27,561 nucleotides of DNA. Origin: a virus. Each line of letters starts with the position of its first letter. Position 1 is the stretch's first letter. The stretch covers positions 1 to 27,561 of the IMG/VR virus record IMGVR_UViG_3300031758_000453; one strand, given 5' to 3'. The notes beneath the pieces were generated by a model. It searched no databases, was not told the DNA's origin, and saw only the letters and a list, made by a program, of their open reading frames with translations. The position numbers and the translations under genes were made by a program. This document shows, one piece after another, positions 1 through 6,847 of this stretch.

Positions 1-123
1 CCTGGACGCCCCCCAGCCGGTTTTCGTGCGTGCCGTGGCATCGGCCACCATCGACGCGCCGACCTTGCCAAGCCGCGCGAGCTTCCATTCCTCCGAGCCT
101 TGCTCGACATCAACCACGCGCAT
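1..123 (-). CDS. YqaJ/lambda-exonuclease-like recombinase (N-terminal fragment)
   Basis: Only the first 41 codons are present; the gene runs off the left edge. The N-terminus reads EQGSEEWKLARLGKVGAS, the hallmark opening of the YqaJ/lambda exonuclease nuclease superfamily, in which a Gln/Gly-Ser-x-x-Trp segment precedes the helix that enters the catalytic core. Such enzymes resect double-stranded DNA 5'-3' to expose single strands for annealing. The ATG overlaps the end of the ERF-family annealing gene by 14 nt, so the two would form a Red-like recombination pair. The acidic catalytic residues and motif III lie outside the window, so activity cannot be judged. Family call is from the motif and the partner gene. 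Confidence 0.72.
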   Translation of the reverse strand, partial: MRVVDVEQGSEEWKLARLGKVGASMVADATARTKTGWGASR

Positions 124-895
124 TGGCCTTCCTCACGTGTGCGAGCTTTGCCGTGAGCCTTGTCTTGATCTCGTCCCGCTGCTTGCCGGTCAGATCGTCA
201 AGTGCCTCGACCGAGTAATGCGCGAGAACGTCGACTTTCTTGACGCCGGTATCGGCGATCAGCTTTTCGATTTCGTCGAGCGTGGCTGTCGCCGGTTTTT
301 CGCCGCCGGCTTGGCCGTCGTCGTCCTCGCCGCGAGCCACAATGTTCAGCAGTGCGAACGCCGTGTATCGCTTGCCGTAGCTGACGCTCGAGCCCCAGCC
401 TTGCATGTTGTTCTTGGCGCCGCTGTCGTCGATCGGCAGAGACATCGAGGTCTCCTCGCAATGGCCGGCCTTGTGGCCAAGAACGGCCGCCACTTCGACG
501 CGCGCCTCCTGCTTGATACGAAACGACAAGGCGAAGCCGTGCTTAGCCAGGATCGGTGTGATCGCTTCGACAACGTCTTCCCACTTGGCATACTTGGTCG
601 CTTTTGCAGCCTGCCTCTGGCCCTTGTCGTCGCGTTTGCTACGGTCGATCTCGCCGCGCTTGTCGACAACTGGCAGCTCCGGCTGCATGTCAGCCAACGC
701 GGCGAGATAGAATACCTTTGCCCGTCGCGCCTCGGCAGCGATGTGCATCTGATAGAGCCGCTCCATCTTGTCGATATCAACCGATGGATCACGGGCCGCG
801 CGCTCGATCATGCTGATCAGCGCTCCGGTGCCGTCCTGCTGGGCTGGCGCTGGCGCTTGCACTTCAGCAGGCGTGATTTTAGCCACCTCACTCAT
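110..895 (-). CDS. ERF-family single-strand DNA annealing protein
   Basis: This 261-residue protein matches the ERF family of phage annealing proteins (P22 Erf type), which bind single-stranded DNA and promote annealing during phage recombination. Visible signatures are the segment KYAKWEDVVEAITPILAKHGFALSF (about residues 105-130, split here only by position), a following beta-rich core with HKAGH, and the conserved tract near SVSYGKRYTAFALLNI, typical of the core end. The C-terminal third is charged and probably flexible. The ATG at 895 was chosen over an upstream in-frame ATG at 985 because GGGGG precedes it and it overlaps the upstream gene by only 8 nt. It is followed by the exonuclease-like gene with a 14-nt overlap. 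Confidence 0.85.
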   Translation of the reverse strand: MSEVAKITPAEVQAPAPAQQDGTGALISMIERAARDPSVDIDKMERLYQMHIAAEARRAKVFYLAALADMQPELPVVDKRGEIDRSKRDDKGQRQAAKATKYAKWEDVVEAITPILAKHGFALSFRIKQEARVEVAAVLGHKAGHCEETSMSLPIDDSGAKNNMQGWGSSVSYGKRYTAFALLNIVARGEDDDGQAGGEKPATATLDEIEKLIADTGVKKVDVLAHYSVEALDDLTGKQRDEIKTRLTAKLAHVRKANARG

Positions 896-2462: not shown

Positions 2463-2807
2463 TCAGGTCTGGCCGCGCAGGATCATTTGGATTGGCGCCA
2501 CCCAATCAATCGTAGCGCCTTCAATGTCTTCAACATTTCGATCGAGCGACCGCAGCGTGTAGCGGCCCGCCGACGCGCCGCGGTGCAACGTCCGGATAAG
2601 TTGCTCCCCCGTCGCCAGCCTGATGATGCAGTCGTCGCCGATGTGATTGTCGACGTGGCGCCCGACAGACTTAGGCCCGCAAACGACATCGCCACGTCGG
2701 TAGACCGGCTGTAAGTCATTGGTTTCTATTACAAGAGTGACGAGGTCTTGCGTTAGCACACGCAGCGTAATCGCCTGACCGTTCGCAACGGTCGTGTCGG
2801 TCCACAT
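2463..2807 (-). CDS. C-terminal part of CI-like repressor (S24/LexA-like domain, catalytically dead)
   Basis: This frame encodes the S24/LexA-like C-terminal domain of a CI-type repressor, which mediates dimerisation. The segment NDLQPVYRRGDVV aligns by eye with the usual D-S-M-x-P...GD motif, and GEQLIRTLHR with the segment carrying the catalytic Lys. Ser is replaced by Asp and Lys by Arg, so autocleavage is not expected. It is out of frame with the HTH half (2716-3060); removing one G from the G9 run at 2812-2820 would join them into a 198-residue protein of normal size, with Asp at 115 and Arg at 156. Alternatively the G run followed by CGAC may act as a ribosome site for ATG 2807, giving a separate 114-aa product. 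Confidence 0.65.
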   Translation of the reverse strand: MWTDTTVANGQAITLRVLTQDLVTLVIETNDLQPVYRRGDVVCGPKSVGRHVDNHIGDDCIIRLATGEQLIRTLHRGASAGRYTLRSLDRNVEDIEGATIDWVAPIQMILRGQT

Positions 2808-3060
2808 GTCGCCCCCCCCCAACTCGGCCTAGCACCTGTAGTTGAGGCGCATTATTTGCGGAGGGCTCTAACAAGTCAATGAGTCGCACCCCTAGTGCTG
2901 ATGCCAGCTTGGCCAGATTCGCGATGGACGGGGTTTGCCCCCGCTTCAGGAGGTCGTGAACCATCGTAGCGTTCACGCCCGCGCGCCGAGTCAGCTCGGC
3001 AGGGGTAATTCCTCTGTCGGCCATAGCCTGCTCAAGCCGTTTTTTCCACGCAGCGTCCAT
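2716..3060 (-). CDS. N-terminal part of CI-like repressor (XRE-type HTH), frameshifted
   Basis: Residues 8-58 form a clear XRE/Cro-CI helix-turn-helix: RLEQAMADRGITPAELTRR, then VNATMVHDLLKRG as the recognition region and SIANLAKLASALGV to close the domain. It would bind the TTGGGAATTCCCAA operators as a dimer. After residue 83 the frame passes a run of nine G and then reads Arg/His-rich nonsense to a stop at 2716 (114 aa), while the expected dimerisation domain continues in another frame. The start ATG 3060 lies downstream of the operators; in-frame ATG 3147 would translate through operator DNA and is unlikely. Either an inactivating indel, phase variation, slippage or a sequencing error explains the split. 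Confidence 0.7.
   Translation of the reverse strand: MDAAWKKRLEQAMADRGITPAELTRRAGVNATMVHDLLKRGQTPSIANLAKLASALGVRLIDLLEPSANNAPQLQVLGRVGGGRHVDRHDRCERSGDYAACANARPRHSCNRNQ
2812..2820 (-). repeat. G9 homopolymer at the repressor frameshift point
   Basis: Nine consecutive C on the plus strand (G on the coding strand) sit exactly where the HTH frame and the S24-like frame must join. Eight G restores a single 198-codon frame. Such runs are prone to slippage in replication and to base-calling errors. Confidence 0.9.
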
Positions 3061-3095
3061 TCCGTGGTTTACCCAATCCACAAGCCTGTGTGTGC

Positions 3096-3109
3096 GCGGT
3101 AATTCCCAC
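3096..3109. promoter_or_regulatory. operator, right pair, degenerate copy
   Basis: GCGGTAATTCCCAC keeps the core GGTAATTCCCA of the left one-mismatch site but has four differences from the perfect palindrome. Its centre is 22 bp (two helical turns) from the perfect right site, and it sits just upstream of the rightward -35. Confidence 0.6.
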
Positions 3110-3138
3110 TTGCTTGCTTGGGAATTCCCAACTACAAC
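3110..3138 (+). promoter_or_regulatory. candidate rightward early promoter (PR-like)
   Basis: TTGCTT (3110-3115) and TACAAC (3133-3138) are separated by 17 nt, with the perfect operator in the spacer, the same arrangement as on the left. Predicted transcription would begin about 3145, essentially at the ATG of the Cro-like gene (3146), implying a leaderless message. Confidence 0.55.
3118..3131. promoter_or_regulatory. operator, right pair, perfect palindrome
   Basis: A second exact copy of TTGGGAATTCCCAA, lying between the -35 and -10 of the rightward promoter and between the divergent repressor and Cro-like genes. Occupation would shut off the rightward early operon. Confidence 0.75.
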
Positions 3139-3145
3139 GTTTGGC

Positions 3146-3370
3146 ATGACGATACGCGATCAACTCCTGGCCGAAATCGAAGAGTTTCTGACCCGCCATG
3201 GAATCTCCGCCAGCCGGTTTGGACGCCTCGCCGCGAACGACACCGCTTTGGTCTCGCGCATGAGGGCTGGCACAGCCGTCCGCATCGATACGGCGGACCG
3301 GCTGCGTCAGTTTATGGCCGAGTACCGCCCTTCCCTGAGCACGGCGGGAAACGACCGCGTCGCCGCCTAG
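3146..3370 (+). CDS. Cro-like small HTH regulator, 74 aa
   Basis: A 74-residue protein transcribed divergently from the repressor. Residues about 17-60 look like a compact HTH: HGISASRFGRLAANDTALVSRMRAG followed by TADRLRQFM. Similar FGRLA...DxxxVxRLRxG proteins are familiar small regulators in alphaproteobacteria. Position between the right operators and the rightward operon makes it the Cro counterpart. ATG 3146 was chosen because an upstream in-frame start (3092) would translate through both operators. No Shine-Dalgarno is visible and the predicted transcription start nearly coincides with the ATG. Binding to the same palindromes is inferred. Confidence 0.68.
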   Translation: MTIRDQLLAEIEEFLTRHGISASRFGRLAANDTALVSRMRAGTAVRIDTADRLRQFMAEYRPSLSTAGNDRVAA

Positions 3371-4019: not shown

Positions 4020-4169
4020 ATGCCAGATACCGACGAAGCAGTCAAAGAAATTATCGAACCCGATCCGGAGGATATGGGGTATTGCTCAGTCTGCGACGTG
4101 GAAATCTCCATTCCAGACGCACCAAATCATCTTTGTGCGCATTGCCGGAATGACGAGGTGGCGTCGTGA
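4020..4169 (+). CDS. 49-aa zinc-ribbon-like peptide
   Basis: A 49-residue acidic peptide with two CxxC pairs: Cys22-Ser-Val-Cys25 and Cys39-Ala-His-Cys42, separated by 13 residues. This is the layout of a small structural zinc ribbon. GAGGA lies just before the ATG at 4020, and the stop overlaps the GTG of the replication gene. A longer frame that overlaps it (3946-4212) is lysine-rich and lacks a motif, so this one is preferred. Small zinc-ribbon proteins often bind nucleic acid or proteins; its position directly before the replication initiator suggests, without proving, a replication or transcription role. Confidence 0.65.
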   Translation: MPDTDEAVKEIIEPDPEDMGYCSVCDVEISIPDAPNHLCAHCRNDEVAS

Positions 4170-4906
4170 GCATGCAAGCGATCAACTACGCGATGACGCT
4201 GCCGGTCGATGAGCCCGGCCCGCGCCTTCTGCTGATCGTCGTCGCGCATCATGTTAACTGGCAGACTGGCACCATGTACGTCAGCCAGGACGTTCTTGCC
4301 AAGGAGGTGCGGGCGTCAAAGCGCAGCGTCCAGCGCTGGCTTTTGCAGCTTGAAGAGGGCGATTACATTTCGCGTTCTAAACAACGCGGCGCTGACGGTC
4401 ATCAGGGCGTGGATGCCATTGAACTGTTGGGGTATCTCGAATGGCAAAACGTCATCAACAACGGCGGTACTCTGCCCAACCCCGAGACGCGCGGAAAGCC
4501 TATCAAATCCCAGGGCGACAAATTGGCCACCGGGCAAATTCCAGGGCGACAAACTGAGGCTTCCAGGGCGACAAATCAGGTAGTCCAGGGCGACACACGT
4601 GTCGCCCATAATAGAAACCCTTATTTAACCATAGATAACCTTAGCGCGGACGTGCGCGCGAGCGAAGGCGCTCGCACTCCCGCGCCAAAAAAGCACCTCC
4701 CCCAATTTGTCATCACGCCTGCCGATAGCTCCTGGGGCCATTGGGTCGCGTGGCTGACCGACAACGACCGTCGCGACCTCGTTCTAGCGGCTCAAGAGGC
4801 TCGGCAGATGGTGACCGCGTCTAGGTGGCCATCTGACAATTCACCGTTGCCCAGCGTCGACGGTCGGCCCGCGCTCGAGAAGCGCAAGCGCGGGGAGGCG
4901 GCATGA
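4166..4906 (+). CDS. O-like replication initiator with winged-HTH domain, origin inside gene
   Basis: A 246-residue protein. Residues about 1-105 form a winged-helix DNA-binding domain of the phage replisome-organiser type: LLLIVVAHHVNW, then VSQDVLAKEVRASKRSVQRWLLQLEEGDYISRS, split by description as helix-turn-helix plus wing. Residues about 115-147 form a polar linker coinciding with four DNA iterons; a Pro/Lys-rich segment and a helical C-terminal region (about 175-246) follow, which in lambda O contacts the helicase-loading partner. Start GTG 4166 overlaps the upstream TGA (GTGA); ATG 4172 is an alternative. The next gene overlaps as ATGA. No helicase or P-like loader is recognised nearby, so a host helicase is probably recruited. 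Confidence 0.72.
   Translation: MSMQAINYAMTLPVDEPGPRLLLIVVAHHVNWQTGTMYVSQDVLAKEVRASKRSVQRWLLQLEEGDYISRSKQRGADGHQGVDAIELLGYLEWQNVINNGGTLPNPETRGKPIKSQGDKLATGQIPGRQTEASRATNQVVQGDTRVAHNRNPYLTIDNLSADVRASEGARTPAPKKHLPQFVITPADSSWGHWVAWLTDNDRRDLVLAAQEARQMVTASRWPSDNSPLPSVDGRPALEKRKRGEAA
4510..4607 (+). repeat. four iterons (CCAGGGCGACAAA) plus inverted half-copy
   Basis: CCAGGGCGACAAA occurs at 4510-4522, 4541-4553 and 4563-4575, and with one change (CCAGGGCGACACA) at 4585-4597. Start-to-start distances are 31, 22 and 22 bp, close to three, two and two helical turns. The last copy continues into GGGCGACAC-AC-GTGTCGCCC (4588-4607), a 9-bp inverted repeat. Because spacings are not multiples of three, the copies are read in different codon frames, so selection is on the DNA and not on the protein. 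Confidence 0.88.
4510..4645. other. candidate phage replication origin
   Basis: The iteron array is followed directly by a locally AT-rich stretch (about 4608-4645, containing ATAATAG and TTATTTAACCATAG) in otherwise GC-rich DNA. Iterons plus adjacent AT-rich DNA inside the initiator gene is the arrangement of lambda ori in gene O. The initiator's N-terminal domain would bind the iterons and melt the AT-rich side. Confidence 0.72.
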
Positions 4907-6295: not shown

Positions 6296-6366
6296 AGCTC
6301 GATAGAGTGCGCAGACCGTCAGCCTTCGATGATTTCCCCAAGACGACACCAGACAAGATCATCTGA
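6292..6366 (+). CDS. possible 24-aa micro-gene
   Basis: GTG 6292 overlaps the TGA of the gene before it, with AGGG upstream, and encodes 24 residues (KLDRVRRPSAFDDFPKTT, then PDKII) before TGA. The overlap pattern matches this operon's habit, but the size makes it weak evidence. It may simply be leader for the NusG-like gene. Confidence 0.25.
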   Translation: MKLDRVRRPSAFDDFPKTTPDKII

Positions 6367-6397
6367 CCACGAGTGCCCGCGTATCGAACGGGACACC

Positions 6398-6847
6398 ATG
6401 AGCATGAACGACGTTTTAACCGCCTTCCACATCGCCCCACAGCGGGAGTTCAAAGCCGCTCGCGAGTGTGAGCGCGCCGGCATTGGCTACGAGCTGCCAA
6501 CGGAGACCGTTACGACCCGCCGCGCCGGCAGTCGCAAGCCAGTAGATCGCACCGTGCCGGCAATCCGGGGCTATCTCCCGGCGGAAGGCAAGCCCCATGA
6601 CGCCCGCTACATCGGCCGGGCGGTTGGGCCAGTGCTGCGCCGTGATATGATCCGCGTCGCTACCCATCTCGACCGCGTCCAGGGGCGCCGCTGCGACAAT
6701 CCTTTCAGTGTCGGCCAGTCCGTCTATCGTGGCGAGGTGCCGGGGACTGTGGTCGACCGCAATGGCGAAACGTGTTGGTTTGCATGGACTATGCTTGGCA
6801 AGCAACACGTCCGCCCCGTCCACTACAAGCAATTGCGCCCTGGTTGA
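6398..6847 (+). CDS. NusG-like transcription antitermination protein (candidate)
   Basis: A 149-residue protein with the outline of NusG/RfaH: residues 10-35 (FHIAPQREFKAARECERAG, then IGYELP) resemble the NGN-domain opening in which aromatic-x-x-x-x-x-x-x-E-x-x-A leads to a helix and a strand; PAIRGYLP (54-61) matches the P-x-x-x-GY-x-F turn; residues 103-120 (FSVGQSVYRGEVPGTVVD) look like a KOW motif. NusG paralogues bind RNA polymerase and suppress pausing or termination. Located last in the early operon and immediately before a promoter match and the late genes, it is in the Q-protein position. ATG 6398 has GGGAC upstream; ATG 6404 is possible. Family assignment is by motif only. Confidence 0.62.
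   Translation: MSMNDVLTAFHIAPQREFKAARECERAGIGYELPTETVTTRRAGSRKPVDRTVPAIRGYLPAEGKPHDARYIGRAVGPVLRRDMIRVATHLDRVQGRRCDNPFSVGQSVYRGEVPGTVVDRNGETCWFAWTMLGKQHVRPVHYKQLRPG

Follow-up and report, generated by a model that had tools for sequence, protein, structure and literature searches.

The window analysed here is the whole stretch of 27,561 nucleotides of IMG/VR virus record IMGVR_UViG_3300031758_000453, which also carries genes for a terminase, a portal, an Erf-like annealing protein and a repressor-like protein. The gene at 4166..4906 on the plus strand (246 codons, GTG start) encodes a putative replication initiator. This assignment is based on family matches, as the N-terminal part of the product (P0001) matches HTH_36 (PF13730) with 27.8 bits, above the Pfam gathering cut-off of 25, and its top PHROG matches are 'replication initiation' families. 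The winged helix-turn-helix (HTH) DNA-binding domain is encoded by 4169..4480 on the same strand, and residues 1-100 are modelled by AlphaFold as a confident winged helix (pLDDT 94-98 per ten-residue block). Judging from the HTH fold, the residues K-R-S-V-Q-R, ending in R56 (P0001 numbering), would form the recognition helix; R52 and R56 were almost unvarying in a 16-row alignment. The matches in the PDB include winged-helix replication proteins, namely 2vn2 by sequence and 2v79 (DnaD) and 4pt7 ('Structure of initiator', which we take to be RepA of plasmid pSK41) by fold. Fold searches with P0001 led to the generic winged helix and added little, 4pt7 being ranked among transcription factors with a Z of about 8; the likeness to the N-terminal domains of DnaD and of winged-helix initiators is at the score level of a common fold, which does not show a shared function.

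The domain is followed by a predicted disordered linker (residues about 113-192, plus strand 4505..4744), with pLDDT below 50 at residues 113-120, 125-186 and 188-192. On the plus strand, a simple scan for sigma-70-like promoters gave none between 3000 and 5100, and no helicase or helicase loader was recognised in the six downstream open reading frames (ORFs) tested. Downstream of the gene, 6329-6847 weakly matches a family of transcription antiterminators in PHROG (E 1.1e-5).

Upstream of the initiator gene the palindrome TGGGAATTCCCA occurs at 2400-2411, 2431-2442 and 3119-3130, one copy with a mismatch, and three such matches were found in 0/100 shuffles. The copies flank a repressor-like gene of the HTH_26 type on the minus strand (2716-3147) together with a second, distinct ORF that is weakly similar to peptidase S24 (2463-2822). 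The arrangement looks like a lysogeny switch that has a left and a right operator and whose repressor is split over two ORFs.

Iteron array and AT-rich stretch

Three exact copies of the 13-bp repeat CCAGGGCGACAAA lie on the plus strand at 4510..4522 (iteron 1), 4541..4553 (iteron 2) and 4563..4575 (iteron 3), followed by CCAGGGCGACACA, with one mismatch, at 4585..4597 (iteron 4), so that the spacing is 31, 22 and 22 bp. The preliminary description of this DNA had placed four such near-identical repeats in the linker-coding part of the winged-HTH gene, each framed differently from its neighbour, and all of this was borne out. The gene-relative frames are 2, 0, 1 and 2, copies 1 and 4 thus sharing one. 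The iterons code for residues about 114-143, inside the predicted disordered linker, where repeats shifted in frame would be expected to cost the protein little. They cannot be attributed to chance, since none of 800 shuffles of the gene (400 synonymous-codon and 400 dinucleotide) gave even three copies, the best 13-mer family with at most one mismatch never exceeding two. Moreover, the window holds six matches at up to two mismatches, a number reached in 0/100 shuffles of the whole window.

An inverted half-copy, TGTCGCCC at 4600-4607, is an exact GGGCGACA on the minus strand and pairs with iteron 4 in a 20-bp palindrome, GGGCGACA-CACG-TGTCGCCC (4588..4607). Over 20 bp the self-complementarity is 90% for iteron 4, 60% for iteron 1 and 0.2 and 0.3 for iterons 2 and 3, in which no second half-site is recognisable. 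The consensus of the relatives is weakly palindromic, and a second half spaced by N4 is weakly visible in their base frequencies. Next to the palindrome lies an AT-rich stretch (4608..4645), a candidate unwinding element, with 29% GC against 61.5% for the window; 15 of the 27,524 38-mers, itself counted, are as low or lower. Both the AT-rich stretch and the inverted half-copy are thus present after the repeats as previously described, but their order had to be corrected: the repeats are followed by the inverted half-copy and this by the AT-rich stretch. In addition, the ten bases CCAATTTGTC at 4702-4711, beyond the AT-rich stretch, exactly match 4517-4526 (iteron 1 and its flank) in inverted orientation, 175 bases upstream.

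Recurrence of the arrangement in relatives

Among the matches listed, proteins of annotated phages share 25-45% identity with P0001 over the matched part, mainly the DNA-binding domain, and the highest identity among these listed matches in the phage collection is 44.6%; no plasmid relatives were found at E 0.01. Scanning viral contigs (viral_contigs) with the single protein and the exact repeat pattern yielded one contig, which is 99.89% identical to the window over 9,895 bp and therefore represents the same phage and no independent test, while an alignment scan of the viral contigs gave three more distant loci. Gordonia phage DatBoi, one of six phages examined, has CACGGGGTGACA spaced 31, 22 and 22. 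CGGGGTG repeats, mostly 22 apart, are present in Arthrobacter phages Juno112 and Andrew, and in Halomonas phage QHHSV-1 there are four copies similar to CCCCCTGACAC, at spacings of 47, 22 and 24. Of the distant relatives, Rhodobacter phage RcDormio has only three copies, exact, of ACCCGACTCCGAA, and in ZF40 the repeat occurs in two copies only and in a single frame.

A search starting from the protein was made with PF13730 in 142, 143 and 148 genomes of three classes, and several of the better matches had repeats of other sequence at similar spacing. As the sole probe this family proved too broad, giving many weak matches and frames of very different length, and alignment A3 was used instead in 369, 385 and 394 genomes of three classes; a search with L016 added 18 of the 19 viral loci. 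From the 99 loci taken, 82 genes were within the score and length limits, two of them (L445 and L466) being loci also found by the repeat scan described below. In 56 of the 82 genes a 10-mer occurs three or more times with one or more spacings of 20-24 bp (46 with two or more such spacings), against 4/79 upstream stretches, 4/76 downstream stretches and 3/82 shuffles; the 56 include 11 near-perfect tandem repeats and a few near-duplicate genes. Of the remaining 26, seven reach three copies or more, but outside this range of spacing (17 and 39 in L454 and L455), and 19 have none. The expectation that relatives keeping the protein would also keep the repeats is thus mostly borne out: in the 56 genes they are found at the corresponding position, in several frames and often as a different motif, while the 26 lack them by this measure.

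The repeat was also searched for without regard to the protein. GGGYGACA three times at exactly 22 bp was found in 13 stretches of viral contigs, eight of them lying inside a winged-HTH ORF or at its end (seven recognised by HMM and L024 by eye), including the window's own phage (L003); in three of the eight the repeats are on the opposite strand. The others (L014, L015, L017, L021 and L023) have no winged-HTH ORF at the array. Three of these, L015 (1348-1450), L017 (5059-5160) and L023 (minus strand, 3134-3185), are related contigs in which GGGTGACA is arrayed every 22 bp, mostly with an inverted CTGTCACC-like half after the copy. No winged-HTH ORF was found within about 1.5 kb of these arrays, which may represent iterons of this kind located outside a gene.

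The same 22-bp triplet gave 90 stretches in 84,980 cellular genomes, and the 80 loci read were mostly tandem-like 22-bp repeats, with a winged-HTH ORF at the array in 4/80 (two from one assembly). Such tandem repeats, which make up many of the cellular matches, raise the question of whether the array in the window is a recent local duplication of DNA without function, as slippage could give a 22-bp spacing. This is highly improbable, as the 14-bp spacers on either side of the third copy agree at only 7/14 bases while the 13-mers are nearly identical, and as phage DatBoi shows the 31-22-22 spacing too, with a motif that is related to this one but not the same. Slippage was accordingly rejected for the window, where the spacers are less conserved than the repeats.

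With the spacing left free, two viral scans together with the earlier matches comprised at least 254 loci and at least 267 GGGYGACA arrays. Among the matches listed, 102 of 267 arrays are located in winged-HTH ORFs or overlap them (12 of the 98 tandem-like arrays and 90 of the 169 others), and these 102 fall into 56 clusters at 60% identity, with a median pairwise identity of 26% and the window's phage as one of the clusters. For the matches listed, the spacing in these clusters is 21-23 bp in 93/150 cases and a multiple of three in 55/150 (a third being 50), whereas in the 165 arrays outside winged-HTH ORFs, which were not clustered, multiples of three account for 325/416 spacings. Spacing in the initiator arrays thus tracks the DNA helix, whereas that in the others mostly tracks the genetic code.

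These counts also bear on the idea that the linker repeats a peptide and that the DNA repeat is merely its consequence. Many GGGYGACA arrays outside winged-HTH genes do look so, with spacings of 18, 27 and 36. However, adjacent copies in the window differ in frame and encode different peptides, 48/56 cluster arrays among the matches listed use more than one frame (8/56 use one), and some arrays are on the strand opposite the gene. A protein-level repeat was therefore rejected for the window, whose reading frames contradict it, and its probability is next to nil.

The AT-rich flank recurs as well. Taking as AT-richer the side that holds the lowest-GC 30 bases, this was the 3' side of the gene in 44 of the 51 decided cases of the 56 clusters among the matches listed. 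Within these matches, the 3' flank was the AT-richer in 37/47 where the repeats are on the coding strand (6 opposite, 4 ties) and the gene's 3' flank in 7/9 where they are on the other strand (1 opposite, 1 tie).

Four loci (L020, L025, L031 and L047) have short winged-HTH ORFs of about 110-140 amino acids that end inside or beside the iteron array, and from these ends it appears that the initiator may be little more than a DNA-binding domain.

Recognition helix and iteron sequence

The first sign of a link between protein and repeat was that the residue ending R-x-V-Q-X tracks the repeat, R going with GACA, K with CGAA and L with TGCA. For R and GACA the protein-first genes gave 12/28 versus 1/28 (Fisher 5e-4), in a set of 56 genes defined by a slightly different criterion, with identical pairs removed and the genes that gave the idea included. 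In loci outside the idea-forming set R alone was weak (6/20 versus 1/20, p 0.046), and R[ST][VAI][QR]R, a pattern refined after the data had been seen, gave 6/7 versus 1/33 (p 1e-5).

As a prospective test, viral contigs were scanned for CCCCGAAC triplets, for which K was expected. The scan gave 112 stretches with 113 arrays, 58 of these in winged-HTH ORFs that form 22 clusters, and the residue was K in 18/22, L in two, S in one, I in one and R in none. Two of the 18 (L570 and L641) are contigs of the loci that had suggested the rule (L453 and L446), and without them K is found in 16/20. The same recount of the GGGYGACA clusters, which had been seen before the prospective test, gave R in 49/51, G in one and K in one among the matches listed, the window's phage being left out; the window itself has R56 with GACA, as the rule predicts.

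The tree of the 73 cluster representatives (22 and 51), with the helix columns removed, was poorly resolved as it has too few columns. The best tree has 13 motif changes, and 11 independent pairs were obtained when all branches were used, but the starred branches alone give only two, with none in the opposite direction. As only two independent switches are certain, shared descent may explain part of the link between helix and motif.

Taken together, it is probable that the PF13730 phage initiators have one self-contained origin design and a recognition-helix code that predicts the iteron. The design would consist of iterons in the linker DNA two helical turns apart, with an unwinding stretch on the 3' side of the gene. 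The code would pair R-[STQH]-V-Q-R with GACA and R-[GA]-V-Q-K with GAAC, and perhaps G with CGCAG and L with TGCA. No report of such a family-wide rule or helix code was found in the open PMC literature searched.

Phage origins are rarely annotated. If the rule is true, a gene annotated just as 'helix-turn-helix protein' marks the origin, the binding site and the unwinding element together, and this applies to phages without a cultured host. Origin, initiator and specificity would move as one cassette, so that for many uncultured phages and prophages the sequence could reveal both the origin and the incompatibility class. Moreover, a paired change of helix residue and iteron makes the recognition code of winged-HTH initiators directly testable, and the code gives an expectation of which prophages and plasmids compete for one initiator.

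The predicted origin and its comparison with known origins

The region 4510-4645 is very likely a phage replication origin of the lambda ori type, as predicted by computation. The lambda-style origin inside the initiator gene proposed in the preliminary description is supported in this sense by the lambda-like layout and by the relatives with repeats. The N-terminal winged-HTH domain would bind the GGGCGACA iterons, probably in dimeric form with each half-site taking up one protomer, and the resulting protein array, at a spacing of two helical turns, could bend or strain the DNA so that the adjacent AT-rich stretch opens. The C-terminal part of the initiator may then recruit a helicase or its loader. 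The position of the iterons in the DNA of a predicted disordered linker would allow any frame to be tolerated.

The array might instead be an operator, bound by the protein in its own gene for the control of transcription or copy number, with the origin elsewhere. A co-varying recognition helix argues for cognate binding and not for initiation, and the matches of the broad PF13730 family in genomes probably include transcription regulators. Operators are expected close to a promoter, however, and the array lies some 340 nt into the gene. An AT-rich stretch is found consistently on the 3' side of the array and also points to an origin, and both the PHROG replication-initiation matches and the match to the lambda layout favour it. 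A role as operator only is unlikely, but the two roles may coexist.

Origins located within initiator genes have been described in other systems. The distantly related origin-binding proteins of P22 and phage L have different iterons within their coding sequence (gene 18), phage L with six imprecise 11-bp repeats, an arrangement like that of the window; the authors regard L gp18 as a possible distant homologue of lambda O (PMC8022706). Francisella phage KIRK is a further case (PMC7924643). The oriV of repABC plasmids lies within the initiator gene repC and has an A+T-rich region, as in the window, but the abstract of PMC3155836 reports no iterons in repC. RepC models gave weak matches for a few relatives (two at 17.9 and 13.5 bits, against a cut-off of 150) and none for P0001 at E<=0.1. 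HTH_36 proteins occur in five types of replication region of Stx phages in the main text of PMC8951638, where the word 'iteron' is absent.

In layout the window closely resembles lambda. The lambda origin comprises four iterons of 18 bp and, adjoining them, an AT-rich sequence of 38 bp (PMC3349717), and lambda O is described as existing as dimers, its minimal site being an imperfect inverted repeat of 19 bp (PMC7466680). The four annotated iterons of lambda start at nucleotides 348, 368, 392 and 415 of the gene and the next 38 bases have 24% GC; those of the window start at nucleotides 344, 375, 397 and 419, and the AT-rich stretch after them has 29% GC. Several iterons in the middle of the initiator gene, at a near-identical position and with a 38-bp AT-rich stretch on the 3' side, are therefore common to both. 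The iteron sequences are unlike, and no P-like gene was recognised among the window ORFs tested. The initiators also differ, that of the window belonging to PF13730 and lambda O to PF04492 (Phage_rep_O), which lambda O matches at 5.7e-36 and which is absent from the six families matched by P0001 at E<=1. No homology with lambda O was found, hhalign giving a probability of 4% and no meaningful profile similarity. With a lambda-like architecture and proteins that are not recognisably related, the window would thus hold a lambda-type origin by architecture, in another protein family.
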